A DNA stretch of 64,000 bases from Leptolyngbya sp. Heron Island J. GTDB lineage: Bacteria > Cyanobacteriota > Cyanobacteriia > Phormidesmidales > Phormidesmidaceae. The translations under genes were made by a program, and so were the position numbers. Where the stretch lies: the NCBI RefSeq assembly GCF_000482245.1, contig NZ_AWNH01000043.1, positions 115,768 through 179,767 on the forward strand, given 5' to 3'. How positions within the stretch are numbered: position 1 is the stretch's first letter; each line of letters opens with the position of its first letter. Under the pieces are notes generated by a model that saw only the letters and a list, made by a program, of their open reading frames with translations, had not been told where the DNA came from and ran no database searches. Below, piece after piece: positions 27,729 to 32,495 of this stretch.

Positions 27729-29333
27729 TCACACACTCGCTGCAATCATTTGGATGGCTTTGGGCATGGCTGGATCAAACCCACTAAAGTCCCAGGAGTA
27801 AGGATCTTGTGGATCTACTAGACTCACTTTATAAGGAGCCAGAGTGATATAGACAGCTTTTGCCTGAGGATTCACCTGGCGGCGATAGTCAGCCAGACGC
27901 TGACTGGGATGAGACTTACCAGCCCAACTTTCACAATCAGTCCAGAAACAGAACACATCCACCTGGACACGGTGGCGAATTGCCCAGTCATAGGCCACCG
28001 CCGCATCAGTCCCCCCAAAGTTTTGGCTGGAGGCCTTGGTCAGGGCTGAACTAAAGCTATCGCGAGCCGTAATTTTAAGGTCGCGAAAATCGGTTGCAAA
28101 CCCGCGAATGATATAGTTGCGCTCGGCCTTGGCTGTTGCCAGGGCCAGCGTAGTGGCAATCTCGCAACAGGTTAAACCAACAGAGCTAACAGTATAGTAA
28201 GACATGGAACCAGACACATCGACAGCATGTAAAAATGTTTTGCCCGTCGGCTGCACCACATCAAAGCAGCGCTCTAAAGCTGTTTCTAAAATGTCTAACA
28301 CACGCGGAATCGGCTGCCAGATTTTCTGACTACGCCCCAGCTTGCCTCCAGACTGGTAGGTCTTCAACGCTTTGAGGATATCAATGGGGTGAATGCGGGC
28401 TTTACGCAACTGCTTTTTGCTCTGCAGGCGCTCTGCCAAATGCTTCAGATTTTTATGCTTGTGGGGCTGCAAAACTTCCAAGTGGGTCAGCGAGCCCAAA
28501 TTACGCAACAATGCACCCATGGGCATATCTTGAAATAACAACTGCCAGGCATGCTGATCCATTTGACCCACGGGGGCAATCATTTCATGAGTCAATCGTC
28601 CCTGACGAATTGCTTCCAGGGTTAAGGATGGGTCACGCTTGACCCGCTCATACCACCAAATTTGTGCCAGGGCTGCACTGGGTGGTGTCTCAGGTACCGT
28701 GTTCCACCCCTGGGTTGCCCACTGGTAAAGTGCCTGGTGCTCAGGTGTCTCGGGCTTTACGTGGAATAGCCGCAACGCATCGCGATGGGTATAGCCGTGG
28801 CGCTGCTGATACTTCAACAACTGATAGGCCAGCGCCGTAGCATCAGGATTTGCCAGCCAGGTCTGGCCACAGGTGCGAATCAGCTTACCAAAGCCCCGCA
28901 GGCTACGGGTATAGTTCAGCCATTCATAGAAATGACTGCCGGTACGCACTACTTTCAAGAAGATCTCCTGGAATGCCTGCTTAGCCGCTGGGGTGTCTCC
29001 CATGGACAATAATACCAGGGCAAACAGGGGAGCACTGTTATTGATGGCATGACCATTGCTGGCATAGACAATCTCTTTTGCGGCCCGACCCGGATCTATC
29101 GTCACCGCTTGAGTCACGACATTGACAAATTCATCAGTCAGCTCATACTTATTGGCATAAAAGCTGCCCTGGGCTGTACCCAACAACAAACAACGACGCA
29201 GCTGTTGCCACAGATCGATTTTGAACTGATAGCCACCGGAACGCCCCTGCACCATATCTGTCTGACGACCCGGAATCGGCTGGGTTTGAGGGGTGCGGTT
29301 TGCGTTTGTAAAAAAGGAATAGCTTGATTTCAT
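27729..29333 (-). CDS. rsr: TROVE-domain Ro60 homologue (Rsr), RNA-binding ring protein
   Basis: A 534-residue bacterial Ro60 orthologue. The first 340 residues are the HEAT-like TROVE ring that binds Y RNA and 3' ends of damaged RNA: QTDMVQGRSGGYQFKIDLWQ, FYANKYELTDEFVNVV, GRAAKEIVYASNGHAINNSA, LRGFGKLIR, HRDALRLFHVKP and RARIHP-like RKARIHPIDILKALKTYQSG are all recognisable. The C-terminal vWA domain has the MIDAS motif DVSGSM with a later Thr/Asp (NFGGTDAAVAYDWA). In Deinococcus and Salmonella, Rsr works with Y RNA and PNPase in RNA decay and stress survival. A candidate Y RNA lies 82 bases upstream on the same strand. No RtcB ligase gene is adjacent. Confidence 0.93.
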   Translation of the reverse strand: MKSSYSFFTNANRTPQTQPIPGRQTDMVQGRSGGYQFKIDLWQQLRRCLLLGTAQGSFYANKYELTDEFVNVVTQAVTIDPGRAAKEIVYASNGHAINNSAPLFALVLLSMGDTPAAKQAFQEIFLKVVRTGSHFYEWLNYTRSLRGFGKLIRTCGQTWLANPDATALAYQLLKYQQRHGYTHRDALRLFHVKPETPEHQALYQWATQGWNTVPETPPSAALAQIWWYERVKRDPSLTLEAIRQGRLTHEMIAPVGQMDQHAWQLLFQDMPMGALLRNLGSLTHLEVLQPHKHKNLKHLAERLQSKKQLRKARIHPIDILKALKTYQSGGKLGRSQKIWQPIPRVLDILETALERCFDVVQPTGKTFLHAVDVSGSMSYYTVSSVGLTCCEIATTLALATAKAERNYIIRGFATDFRDLKITARDSFSSALTKASSQNFGGTDAAVAYDWAIRHRVQVDVFCFWTDCESWAGKSHPSQRLADYRRQVNPQAKAVYITLAPYKVSLVDPQDPYSWDFSGFDPAMPKAIQMIAASV

Positions 29334-29415
29334 CTATCGGCCCTCCTGGGCAATTGCCATGATCCGTTGGACAAGGGAGTAGAGCGGGAGTTGCACCCGC
29401 AGTTCGGTGTGAAGT

Positions 29416-29538
29416 GTGATAGGGGGGAATCGAACCCCCGACCTCCCGCTCCGAAGGCGATAACCCTAATTCGTCGACCCTTGCGGATAAGTGGTGAAAA
29501 AGGGAGTTTAGGCGCTCTGTCCACTGAGCTACTATCAC
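29416..29538 (-). ncRNA. Candidate Y RNA with tRNA-like module (YrlA type)
   Basis: Read on the minus strand, 29538-29532 (GTGATAG) pairs with 29422-29416 (CTATCAC) as a 7-bp acceptor stem. TA and a D arm GCTC-AGTGGACA-GAGC follow, and near the 3' end is a perfect T arm GGGGG-TTCGATT-CCCCC. Where a 17-base anticodon arm should be there are about 70 bases, so the whole is 123 rather than 72 bases. This insert can form CTCCC/GGGAG (29502-29506 with 29443-29447) and, inside it, CCG(C)AAGG/CCTTCGG with a bulged C (29479-29486 with 29451-29457). Bacterial YrlA RNAs mimic tRNA in this way and are encoded beside rsr, which starts 82 bases downstream. A tRNA-Arg-like gene with an insertion (CTTCGGA would be a UCG loop) is the alternative. 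Confidence 0.75.
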
Positions 29539-29672
29539 CGGATGTCAATCAGCAGGAACATCTGTTCCGTTTGCCTTTCGACATGTTTAGAATAGGCAAA
29601 CGATTTACCCCTAAGCGAATGCCAGCTCAAACCGGCTAAAGGCTTGAATAGCAGGCGTTTTACAATTAGGGG

Positions 29673-32495
29673 GTGCTGGTTAGTCAGGGGGGGACCTCAA
29701 CTTTGCCCAAAATCAGTTACGGCCCCGTGGCTAAACAGCGAACATTAGTACTACTAATGGCTCTGGTGGACTTTGGCAATGATGAACTGGATATGGAGGA
29801 TGAAACGGCCATTGAGGGACTGCGATCGCAACTTACTTTCCATTGGGCTACAGATCGGCAGCTCATCGTCCGTACCAAAATCCGCTATCTTGAAGCTCTG
29901 ACCCAGCTAGCGGCTGGCGAGCAGTCCCTCACCAAGGCTCAAATTAAAACGGCGCTGCATCACTTGGAACATCACGTAGCAGTGCTAGAAGATAACCGCA
30001 TCAGCCGTCGGGGCTCAGAAGTCTGGCATTTTACCCTAACCCTGTGGCATCACCGTCGCGATCGCCCTGCTTTATTGAAAACCTTTGATCACATTTGGGA
30101 ACAGCGTAGATGCGATCGCTCACCCCCCTCAGAAAGTACCCCACCCACAGACAGTCGCCGCTGGCAACAATACTGTCAACACGCTCTTTCATCGACCCTG
30201 CAAACAGGCCTAAACTCTAACCTGCTGGGCCGTGTGGACCCACCGCAACTGCCCCTCGCTTTAGTAGAACACATCATAGAATCATCTGCTCAACAAACAT
30301 CAGACATTGACACCATTGACACCTCTGAACTGCTAAATTATCTGCAGCACAATACCATTCAAAACCTGGCGATTGTCGGTGAACCTGGTGCCGGTAAAAC
30401 CACGCTCCTGCAACAGCTAGCCCAGGAGATTCTCCAGCAAACTGCCGATTTAGCAATTGTGGTTTCCCTGGCCCAACTGGGCACCCAATCACTCGAAGAC
30501 TACATATTACAAGACTGGCTCAAACTAGCTCTCAACCAGCGCACGGTGACCCCTGAACAACAAAAAGAGCTGGCTGACTCCATTGAACAGGGACACAGTT
30601 GGCTACTGCTGGATGCGGTCGATGAAATGGAGCTGTCCGGCAGTTTAGCCATCACTCAGCTAGCCCATCAGCTGCAGGGTTGGCTCAGTAATGGACGCAT
30701 TATTATCACCTGTCGTCTCAACCTTTGGGATGCAGGTAAAAATATCCTCAGCCACTGGCCCACCTACCGTCTGCTAGGTTACGAGAATTACCGACAACAA
30801 ATTCAGCCTTTTATTCGTCGATGGTTTGCACATCAACCTGAGCAGGGAAAAGCCCTGTGTCAGCAACTCTCACTGCCAGAGCATAAACGCCTGCGCAACA
30901 ATCTACGCAATCCCCTACGGCTGGCTTTATTTTGCCGGTTGGGTAGCGGTGGACAACTTGCCAAGACCCAACATCAGCTCTACCAGCAGTTTGTCACAGC
31001 CCTTTATGACTGGCAGCAGGATACGCTCCCAACCACCCTGCTGGAACAACACCAAATCAACCAAGTGCTCTCTCAGCTGGCCCTGGTTACGCTCAATGTC
31101 TCGACCACTCAGTTGAGCCTCTCTCGGGTAACGCAACACCTGACACCGGCAGACCTGCCCTGGTTTGAACGCGCCATTCAGCTCGGTTGGCTGACGCCGC
31201 TGGCCACATCCACGGGTGAAAAGGTCTATAGCTTTCTACACGGTACATTTCGTGATTATTTTGCAGCCCAGGCCATTGATCGGTGGCAACACTTTACAAC
31301 TCTCCACCACAAGCAGCTCCCAATGGTGATGCTAGGCTGGCAGGCCGTTATATTGCTCTGGTTAGGCCGCAGTGATATTCCCAACGCCGAAAAGAACAGC
31401 TTAGTAAACGCACTGATTGAGTTTAAAGATGACTGTGGTGGCTTTTTTGAGCATCGTACCTGGCTATTTGCGGGTCGCGCCCTGGGGGAATATCCCGAGT
31501 TTCCGAAGGCGGATATCATCATTCAACAACTAGTAGAGTGGCGCTTTAACTTCAACCGAAAAACCCCATCCATCTTAATCGAAGCGGCTAAAGCGGCATT
31601 AGCGGAGTCGGACTTGAATCGGGTGACTCAGGTGCTCACTCAGCTGACTCAAGATCCCAGTCAAGATTTCTTTGATCGCTGGATGGCTGCTTACAGCCTC
31701 GGTCGTAGCTATGCTCCCCAAAGCCAGGTCGCAGTAGAAACCCTGGTATCATTGTTGCCCACGATGCGTAGTGACTATCTAAAAATGGATATGGCTCGTC
31801 ACTTAGGCACCCTTTCACCAGGCCATTCTTTAGCGATTACAACACTAGTTGAGATTATCAACGCCAGCCCACAACCACTGACACAACGAAAAGCGTCCCT
31901 ACGTTTAGCAAAGGTTGCCCCCAATCATCCGTTGCCCATAACTACCTTAGAACAATTGCTAGTAGATAATCCCCAGGATAAAGCGACCCTAAACGCCCTG
32001 GCCACCCTTGCCCCCAACCATCCCATGGTTGTAGAGATAGGAACGTCTGCAAAGTCTCGCCGCGTCAGCTCCCGACGTCGCGTCAACAGAAAACCCCATC
32101 GGTCACCTGATAGGGCTAAACAAATCGATAGTTTAGTGGCTCGGTTGAGCGATCGCAACCGGCTACGACTGGCCCAAAAGCTCAGCCAGCTGCAGCCTGG
32201 GCATCCCGTCGCCATTGAAACCCTGTGGCAGTGTCTGATCGCCAGTGAGAATAAGACGAAACAAAAGCAGGCGGGCCATGCCTTACAAATTGCTGCCACC
32301 GATAACCAAATCCCTGAGCTGGTTGCCAAACTACGCCCTATTTACGAACAAGCCTGCATAGACCAACCCAAAGCACAACTGTTAGCGTTCTTCAAACTCT
32401 TCTGGACCTGGGCAGATACGTTGGGGTATCCAGCCTTTGTGACGGCCTGGCAAAACGCTGGAGCAAAAAACAGAAGCATGAGAACAGAGGAATGA
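29673..32495 (+). CDS. NACHT-type STAND NTPase with C-terminal HEAT-like repeats
   Basis: A 940-residue NTPase. Residues about 14-150 form a helical domain seen before several cyanobacterial NACHT proteins (LVLLMALVDFGNDELD, TDRQLIVRTKIRYLEALT, RRGSEVWHFTLTLWHHR). The NTPase has Walker A GEPGAGKTT (236-244), Walker B SWLLLDAVDE and the NACHT tail FLHGTFRDYFAAQAI. From about 640 on, repeats such as LGTLSPGHSLAITTLVEII and LAKVAPNHPLPITTLEQLL are HEAT-like and probably sense a ligand. The start is GTG at 29673 with AGGGG just upstream; no ATG precedes the conserved part. It is divergent from the rsr/Y RNA unit by about 135 bases. No effector domain is evident. NACHT proteins often act in antiphage defence; this is inferred here. 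Confidence 0.88.
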   Translation: MLVSQGGTSTLPKISYGPVAKQRTLVLLMALVDFGNDELDMEDETAIEGLRSQLTFHWATDRQLIVRTKIRYLEALTQLAAGEQSLTKAQIKTALHHLEHHVAVLEDNRISRRGSEVWHFTLTLWHHRRDRPALLKTFDHIWEQRRCDRSPPSESTPPTDSRRWQQYCQHALSSTLQTGLNSNLLGRVDPPQLPLALVEHIIESSAQQTSDIDTIDTSELLNYLQHNTIQNLAIVGEPGAGKTTLLQQLAQEILQQTADLAIVVSLAQLGTQSLEDYILQDWLKLALNQRTVTPEQQKELADSIEQGHSWLLLDAVDEMELSGSLAITQLAHQLQGWLSNGRIIITCRLNLWDAGKNILSHWPTYRLLGYENYRQQIQPFIRRWFAHQPEQGKALCQQLSLPEHKRLRNNLRNPLRLALFCRLGSGGQLAKTQHQLYQQFVTALYDWQQDTLPTTLLEQHQINQVLSQLALVTLNVSTTQLSLSRVTQHLTPADLPWFERAIQLGWLTPLATSTGEKVYSFLHGTFRDYFAAQAIDRWQHFTTLHHKQLPMVMLGWQAVILLWLGRSDIPNAEKNSLVNALIEFKDDCGGFFEHRTWLFAGRALGEYPEFPKADIIIQQLVEWRFNFNRKTPSILIEAAKAALAESDLNRVTQVLTQLTQDPSQDFFDRWMAAYSLGRSYAPQSQVAVETLVSLLPTMRSDYLKMDMARHLGTLSPGHSLAITTLVEIINASPQPLTQRKASLRLAKVAPNHPLPITTLEQLLVDNPQDKATLNALATLAPNHPMVVEIGTSAKSRRVSSRRRVNRKPHRSPDRAKQIDSLVARLSDRNRLRLAQKLSQLQPGHPVAIETLWQCLIASENKTKQKQAGHALQIAATDNQIPELVAKLRPIYEQACIDQPKAQLLAFFKLFWTWADTLGYPAFVTAWQNAGAKNRSMRTEE

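Follow-up and report, generated by a model that had tools for sequence, protein, structure and literature searches.

A locus on the minus strand of the window, by which we mean the whole 64,000-nucleotide stretch analyzed here, encodes with a probability of about 80% a Y RNA in which a tRNA cloverleaf carries, on its anticodon stem, a 51-base module resembling a Ro60 site; the RNA is predicted to be bound by the neighboring Rsr. A tRNA-mimicking Y RNA beside its Rsr, as the earlier note had proposed, is the best reading, supported by rsr-linked conservation, by its being found, in two genome samples, only in genomes with an rsr match, and by the match between the module and the core of other Y RNAs. 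It most likely represents a second topology of the tRNA-mimic kind, with its parts in tRNA order, and would by analogy work as YrlA does.

The perfect acceptor stem, D arm and T arm described in the earlier note were recovered, as was a stem with a bulged C inside the insert (see the table). The anticodon arm, which had been thought to be replaced by about 70 bases, is in fact kept: the 68 bases from the D arm to the variable region consist of the insert and an otherwise intact arm, CC/CGC-CUUCGGA-GCGGG, where the slash marks the point of insertion. The unit was the sole DNA match in its own genome, where the search found no second copy, and no match for it was found in the window with Rfam at gathering scores. 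The TROVE protein gene that it directly precedes on the same strand encodes a Ro60 orthologue whose best solved relatives are 2nvo (Rsr) and 1yvp (Ro60); the distance to the rsr start is 81 bases rather than the 82 given earlier. On the other side, a divergent gene (29673-32495, plus strand) encodes a 940-amino-acid EAD4-NACHT STAND protein, and similar sequence was seen by eye at the same place in loci L002 to L004. This gene beside rsr is a possible conflict or defense system.

Table. Predicted features of the Y RNA locus and the adjacent rsr gene (window coordinates)
Feature	Position	Strand	Basis
rsr, Ro60 orthologue, 534 aa, TROVE + vWA_Ro60	27729..29333	-	Domain matches; solved relatives
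rsr leader hairpin UUGCCC-AGGA-GGGC-C-GA, candidate Rsr operator	29337..29353	-	Holds Shine-Dalgarno-like AGGAGG in loop and stem
Remnant of second, decayed unit: T arm, acceptor 3' strand	29375..29401	-	By eye
Predicted tRNA-order Y RNA, 124 nt	29415..29538	-	Model R1, 120.1 bits across whole model (not independent: the unit is 1 of the 32 rows behind R1)
Acceptor stem, 3' strand	29416..29422	-	Sequence; discriminator A at 29415; CCA not encoded
T arm	29423..29439	-	5/5 pairs; 100% paired in 32 aligned units
Anticodon arm, positions 29-43, loop CUUCGGA	29445..29459	-	Helices 3 and 7 covary; positions 27-28 = 29511-29512
Conserved UUAGGGUUAUCG element	29458..29469	-	Sequence and alignment of units
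Inserted Y module, 51 nt	29460..29510	-	Sits between tRNA positions 28 and 29
Ro60-site-like hairpin UU-AUCC-GCAA-GGGU-C-GA, bulged C	29474..29490	-	Stem covaries (helix 6); pattern count
D arm	29514..29529	-	4/4 pairs
Acceptor stem, 5' strand	29532..29538	-	7/7 pairs with 29416-29422; compensatory changes at all 7 across units

The earlier note had looked to the upstream regions of rsr in related cyanobacteria for confirmation. We took the rsr loci of the best 80 of 106 relatives of the window Rsr from cyanobacterial genomes and scanned as much as 1.5 kb of sequence ahead of rsr for the word GGTTAT enclosed in a tRNA shell, a search that units lacking this word would escape. It recovered 211 units, present in 79 of these 80 loci and in the window, with 1 to 7 per locus; in the exception, L046, only the 3' half of a unit is kept, as judged by eye. 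These sorted into 162 units of type I (the window's form), in which the long Y-stem strand lies before the hairpin, 44 of type II, in which it lies after the hairpin, and 5 unsorted; type II is defined by length and includes a few degenerate units. By the same length sorting, both types occurred together in 40 of the loci from the best 80 of 106 relatives. A single recognizable unit was found in 11 of the 81 sequences, the window included, a count in which the sequence ahead of rsr is limited to 236 bases in one locus (L028) and decayed units may have escaped the search. In the window, a decayed second unit that has lost its 5' half lies between the RNA and rsr, and its remnant resembles the 3' end of the rsr-nearest type II unit in loci L005 and L081; comparable remnants were seen by eye in L002 to L004. 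In L002 and L003 (2785-2925), the module of one unit has about 18 extra nucleotides that look like a near-duplicate of the Ro hairpin. Picosynechococcus PCC 7002 (L083) carries rsr and three units on plasmid pAQ7, beside phosphonate and siderophore uptake genes; the gene table of this locus contains no RNA genes of any kind. Leptolyngbya PCC 7375 has one unit.

The link between RNA and rsr was then followed through whole genomes with R1, a model whose E-values are rough. In a same-phylum census of 244 genomes, evidently one draw for both the Rsr and the RNA searches, 30 genomes had an Rsr match and 22 had the RNA at E <= 1e-8, all 22 lying within the 30; all 47 RNA matches were on the contig of rsr, on its strand and within 2.5 kb of it. 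The RNA was not found in the 214 genomes without an rsr match, where 14 candidates per genome were scored under stricter filters and absences are not exhaustive. Eight genomes had an Rsr match without the RNA at this limit: in G085 the match is a fragment with a stop, G130 has a 58-bit unit on closer look, and in G074, G077, G087, G091, G094 and G177 the Rsr matches are divergent or partial. In a second sample of 59 relatives, every genome matched at E 0.001 because R1 also matches ordinary tRNAs (about 46 to 56 bits); counting only matches above 75 bits and longer than 100 nucleotides, the RNA was present in 11, all of them belonging to the 12 genomes in which rsr was matched. In the remaining one, G045, only a C-terminal piece of rsr was seen.

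The proposed fold was examined in an alignment of 32 of the 58 nonredundant type I units, the 26 dropped having mainly long or irregular inserts. A 34-pair structure drawn from the window sequence was paired in 97.3% of cells across the 32 units, compared with a shuffled mean of 84.8% (0 of 500 shuffles reached the observed value) and at most 52.1% for slid versions of the structure. Changes on both sides were seen at 19 pairs (reached by 1 of 500 shuffles), and there were 48 further pair types (reached by 11 of 500). Compensatory changes fell in the Ro hairpin, in the acceptor stem and the D and T arms, and in each half of the anticodon stem (27-28/42-43 and 29-31/39-41). The outer Y stem of the module, made up of helices 4 and 5, showed no double-sided changes in the 32 units. 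Since each half of the anticodon stem covaries, this arm is supported as a helix from whose 5' strand the module branches. RNAalifold recovered most of the drawn helices, minus pairs 27-28/42-43 and the GA:UU pairs, and the single-sequence minimum free energy fold departs partly from the drawn structure, with a different inner fold. The GGUUAUCG element was invariant across the 32 aligned units, which had themselves been searched for with GGTTAT.

Anticodon arms were counted with the cut fixed after GGUUAU, in place of a first parse with a free cut point, which was ambiguous. Among the type I units, 159 carried GGTTATC; 85 of these had all five anticodon-stem pairs, and 84 of the 85 had U33. 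When positions 27-28 were dealt among units, the share of 5/5 stems fell from 53% to 30% (maximum of 500 deals, 36%); in the nonredundant set, 22 of 57 units (39%) had 5/5 stems, compared with 20% after dealing and a maximum of 32%.

This arm invites the reading of the locus as a gene for tRNA-Arg(UCG) whose anticodon stem is interrupted by a 51-base intron; splicing would then yield a working tRNA and discard the insert. With the insert removed and the flanks joined, ARAGORN returns a standard tRNA-Arg(tcg) with a perfect 5-bp anticodon stem; the U33 in 84 of the 85 units with 5/5 stems and an RtcB ligase encoded elsewhere in the genome also suit an intron. The earlier note had regarded a covariance score as an ordinary insert-bearing tRNA as evidence against a Y RNA, and here the outcome was divided: the window unit is not among the matches of the Rfam tRNA model RF00005 (cut-off, 29), whereas nine sister units, spread over four of the five cyanobacterial loci scanned, score 37 to 57 bits as insert-bearing tRNAs. 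Its expectation that a gene finder would call a broken or intron-containing tRNA-Arg was partly correct, in that the intron modes of ARAGORN call a tRNA, but the identity is tRNA-Val or tRNA-Gly, and default ARAGORN called no tRNA in the 64-kb window. On the relatives, the intron modes gave inconsistent identities, and these calls were set aside as evidence. Against the intron, however, the insert is better conserved than the anticodon and matches the Ro60-site cores of other Y RNAs, and in most of 23 nonredundant type II units, inspected by eye, removal of the module restores no anticodon arm. The restriction of the RNA to rsr-bearing genomes in the 244-genome census (14 candidates scored in each of the 214 others) likewise speaks against an intron-bearing tRNA gene. 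The genome also has insert-free tRNA-Arg genes (acg, ccg, cct and tct), and under wobble rules a separate UCG tRNA is not needed. Its 54 Rfam tRNA matches do not include the window unit, and ARAGORN names 53 tRNAs in the genome stretches scanned. A 2.4-kb contig of the same genome (C115, locus L142) holds a dense array of 15 tRNA matches, two of them weak (29.9 and 40.4 bits). We consider the intron reading very unlikely. The features that also suit a tRNA role, namely the tRNA scores of the nine sister units, the intact anticodon loops in 85 of 159 units and a CCA directly after 28 of 205 units, nevertheless leave room for tRNA-like processing, even charging, of the units.

The Y RNA reading draws most directly on the module. 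Scanning of 206 units for UU, four base pairs, a 4-base loop, one bulged base, G and then A, G or C found the pattern in 166; the bulge was a C in 161 of these and a U in the other 5. The order within the cyanobacterial module is UUGCC, tetraloop, GGC-C-GA and then GGGUUAUCG; with the bulged-C hairpin first and GGGUUAUCG after it, this looks like the Ro60 site of other Y RNAs. As described in a review (PMC4726728), the vertebrate site has a helix of seven pairs in which one C bulges out and three bases bulge on the opposite strand, and a UUAUC motif is common to nematode sbRNAs and vertebrate Y RNAs. The window site has four pairs, the bulged C, two pairs and then a five-against-one loop, and does not reproduce the vertebrate numbers exactly; with this loop beside the bulged C, the match to the vertebrate site is inexact. 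A counterpart was found in a deep-branching relative (G094, L115), which has two 66-nucleotide RNAs of ordinary Y topology on the minus strand just before its divergent rsr (631-696 and 771-836). The nematode family RF01656 (gathering, 38) scores the two RNAs at 37.4 and 31.3 bits, and their sequence reads GGGC-C-GGAG, GGGUUAUC, UUGCCC; the cyanobacterial module consists of these pieces in a rotated order. The module matches the Ro60-site core of Y RNAs that precede rsr in phages as well as in this relative. A Y RNA near rsr in a Gordonia phage (L085, 1319-1446) scores 31.8 bits with RF01656 (gathering, 38). These near-gathering scores contrast with the statement, in the same review, that bacterial and vertebrate Y RNAs are not homologous (PMC4726728).

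The earlier note had placed the RNA with the YrlA type, which the strand order does not bear out. In the Rfam YrlA family (RF02553), the order is Y stem, T arm, an acceptor closed by a short loop, D arm and Y stem; the window unit runs acceptor, D arm, module, anticodon arm, T arm and acceptor, with open acceptor ends. RF02553 gave no match in 29250-29700 up to E 10, and the unit is not a member of that family as it is defined. According to a review, the ends of YrlA pair into a large stem that tethers Rsr, and its tRNA-like domain binds PNPase (PMC8394870); in another report, ARTEMIS superposes YrlA (6CU1) on tRNAs through a circular permutation (PMC11472068). We built a second model, R2, from 32 units rotated in silico by opening the loop of the Ro hairpin and closing the acceptor; its E-values, too, are rough. 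R2 matched over its full length the YrlA RNAs of two actinophages, mycobacteriophage Dandelion (L084, 70.8 bits) and the Gordonia phage L085 (69.0 and 50.3 bits), and it also matched at full length in a Streptomyces phage (L086, 50.7 bits), G177 (L116, 60.5 bits) and G097 (L121, 52.1 bits). Unrotated R1 reached at most 27.9 (L084), 35.0 (L085) and 20.3 (L086) bits at the phage places. The phage YrlA RNAs themselves fall below the RF02553 cut-off of 69, at 42.2 and 36.1 bits. R2 matched the Bosea YrlA (L087) only in part, at 30.8 bits, and neighboring ordinary tRNAs in part, at no more than 33.4 bits. Because the rotated model matches phage YrlA at full length and the unrotated model scores lower, the family likely is a circular permutation of YrlA, with the same elements in the same circular order.

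Among viral rsr loci (best 80 of 392), the full R2 model reached at least 45 bits in 58, in two of which R1 was higher. By strand order, 56 of these best 80 of 392 loci had YrlA order, 6 (L214, L218, L227, L236, L237 and L238; R1 above 55 bits and above R2) had tRNA order and 18 had neither, some of the last having little sequence before rsr. Among the genomes looked at, tRNA order tracks the close cyanobacterial Rsr clade, and YrlA order is seen in G177, a cyanobacterium whose Rsr is 32% identical. G097 apparently has both orders 3' of rsr, with two tRNA-order units and one YrlA-order unit among ordinary tRNA genes. In the divergent lineages L121, L124, L116 and L120, rsr or a weak relative adjoins runs of ordinary tRNA genes; such runs may be the birthplace of tRNA-bodied Y RNAs.

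In tandem arrays, the same letters could be read in the other frame: the RNA made would have YrlA order, starting in one unit's module, passing through the acceptor and ending in the module of the following unit, and tRNA order would be only an appearance of the array. The YrlA model indeed gave six matches on cyanobacterial arrays (24 to 32 bits; gathering, 69), all spanning one unit's module to the next, and R2 matches in that frame with up to 81 bits. In the 11 of 81 sequences with a single recognizable unit, however, the window among them, no second full module was seen. R2 scores of 32 to 58 bits in single-unit cyanobacterial loci and the window were attributed to the half that the two models share and were not counted as YrlA. 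Acceptor strands pair at 6.2 of 7 positions within units compared with 4.2 across units, the within-unit value being biased because units were picked with at least 6 pairs, and the best R1 score exceeded the best R2 score in 9 of 9 cyanobacterial sources compared, several of which supplied rows to both models. A YrlA-order product of the arrays is very unlikely, marginally the least probable of the rival readings.

The position of the unit raises the further alternative of a tRNA-like rsr mRNA leader that acts in cis, as punctuation or a regulatory element, and is cut out by RNase P with no role in trans. The unit does lie on the same strand 81 bases before rsr, and a promoter scan found no sigma-70-like promoter in 29200-29800 that would make it a separate transcript. 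Yet an array can hold as many as seven units, in G126 units stand 1.4 to 1.6 kb ahead of rsr and in G097 2.5 kb behind it, and the leader has a similar site in a separate hairpin of its own; we regard a purely cis-acting leader as highly improbable. That hairpin lies at the rsr ribosome-binding site, and the Ro-like pattern was found there in 66 of 81 leaders (the window and the best 80 of 106 relatives), a proportion that overstates independence because the leaders come mostly from related Nostocales. Shuffled leaders averaged 3.7 and never exceeded 8, and other upstream windows gave 1 to 6. The typical form is UUGCCC-N4-GGGC-C/U-GR; a strict form (4 bp, 4-base loop) was present in 65 leaders as 23 different sequences, in which two pairs switch from C-G to U-A, and one leader 17-mer is identical to a unit hairpin. 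By script, the pattern was absent from the leaders of PCC 7002 and of seven divergent rsr genes; the leaders of PCC 7002 (L083) and phage L086 are near misses by eye. The occurrence of this hairpin suggests self-control by Rsr.

For the tRNA-mimicking Y RNA, we propose that the transcript would be trimmed like a tRNA, by RNase P, 3' exonucleases and perhaps CCA addition. Rsr would hold the module, and an effector, for example PNPase, would meet the tRNA-shaped face of the tRNA body. Rsr left unbound would attach to the similar leader hairpin of its own mRNA and block the ribosome-binding site; through this binding by free Rsr, the supply of Y RNA would set the supply of Rsr. A bolder scheme, which we regard as speculative and rather unlikely as a whole, holds that bacterial Y RNAs come in two reciprocal circular permutations that interconvert via tandem arrays. 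In it, the tRNA-order form would be a genuine chimera of tRNA and Y RNA that undergoes processing, CCA tailing and possibly charging, its intact anticodon loop would serve as an anticodon-nuclease decoy or sensor on a handle gripped by Rsr, and Rsr would throttle its own translation via the copy of the Y site in the mRNA leader. With free acceptor ends and many intact anticodon loops, the family makes ideas on the purpose of tRNA mimicry (effector docking, nuclease decoy, tRNA repair) directly testable, through whether the RNAs are trimmed, tailed, charged or cut as tRNAs are; the leader hairpin adds a testable feedback circuit. Many cyanobacteria, including the laboratory strain Picosynechococcus PCC 7002, gain a predicted RNA partner for Ro60.

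Likely Y RNAs near Ro60 were reportedly noted by Chen et al. in 2014 in over 250 bacterial and phage species, and that set may already include cyanobacteria. Among the papers listed by our literature searches, none was recognized as dealing with cyanobacterial Y RNAs; whether tRNA-order Y RNAs are new in print is uncertain. Among known systems, intron-bearing tRNA genes share with the window unit a full tRNA once the insert is removed, but here conservation and linkage to rsr lie with the insert, which matches Y RNAs. tmRNA is likewise a tRNA-like body interrupted by another functional module; unlike it, the window unit matches the tmRNA model only in the T arm, and its likely partner is Rsr, not SmpB. 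The nematode stem-bulge RNA/Y RNA (RF01656, ceN72-3_ceN74-2) has the core GGUC-C-GG, GGGUUAUC, CUUGACC in common with the unit, but has no tRNA body and is of ordinary topology. YrlA (RF02553; 6CU1) resembles the unit in that it also adjoins rsr, has a tRNA D arm, T arm and acceptor, places a Ro60-site stem where the anticodon arm points, and contains an ACUUG-type strand. It differs in that, according to the review cited above (PMC8394870), YrlA ends in the Y/Rsr stem and its acceptor is closed by a loop, whereas the window unit is predicted to end at the acceptor and its Y stem is closed by a tetraloop. The comparison suggests that evolution has conserved the shape of bacterial Y RNAs, in which a stem that binds Rsr sits on a tRNA-like body, rather than their strand order.
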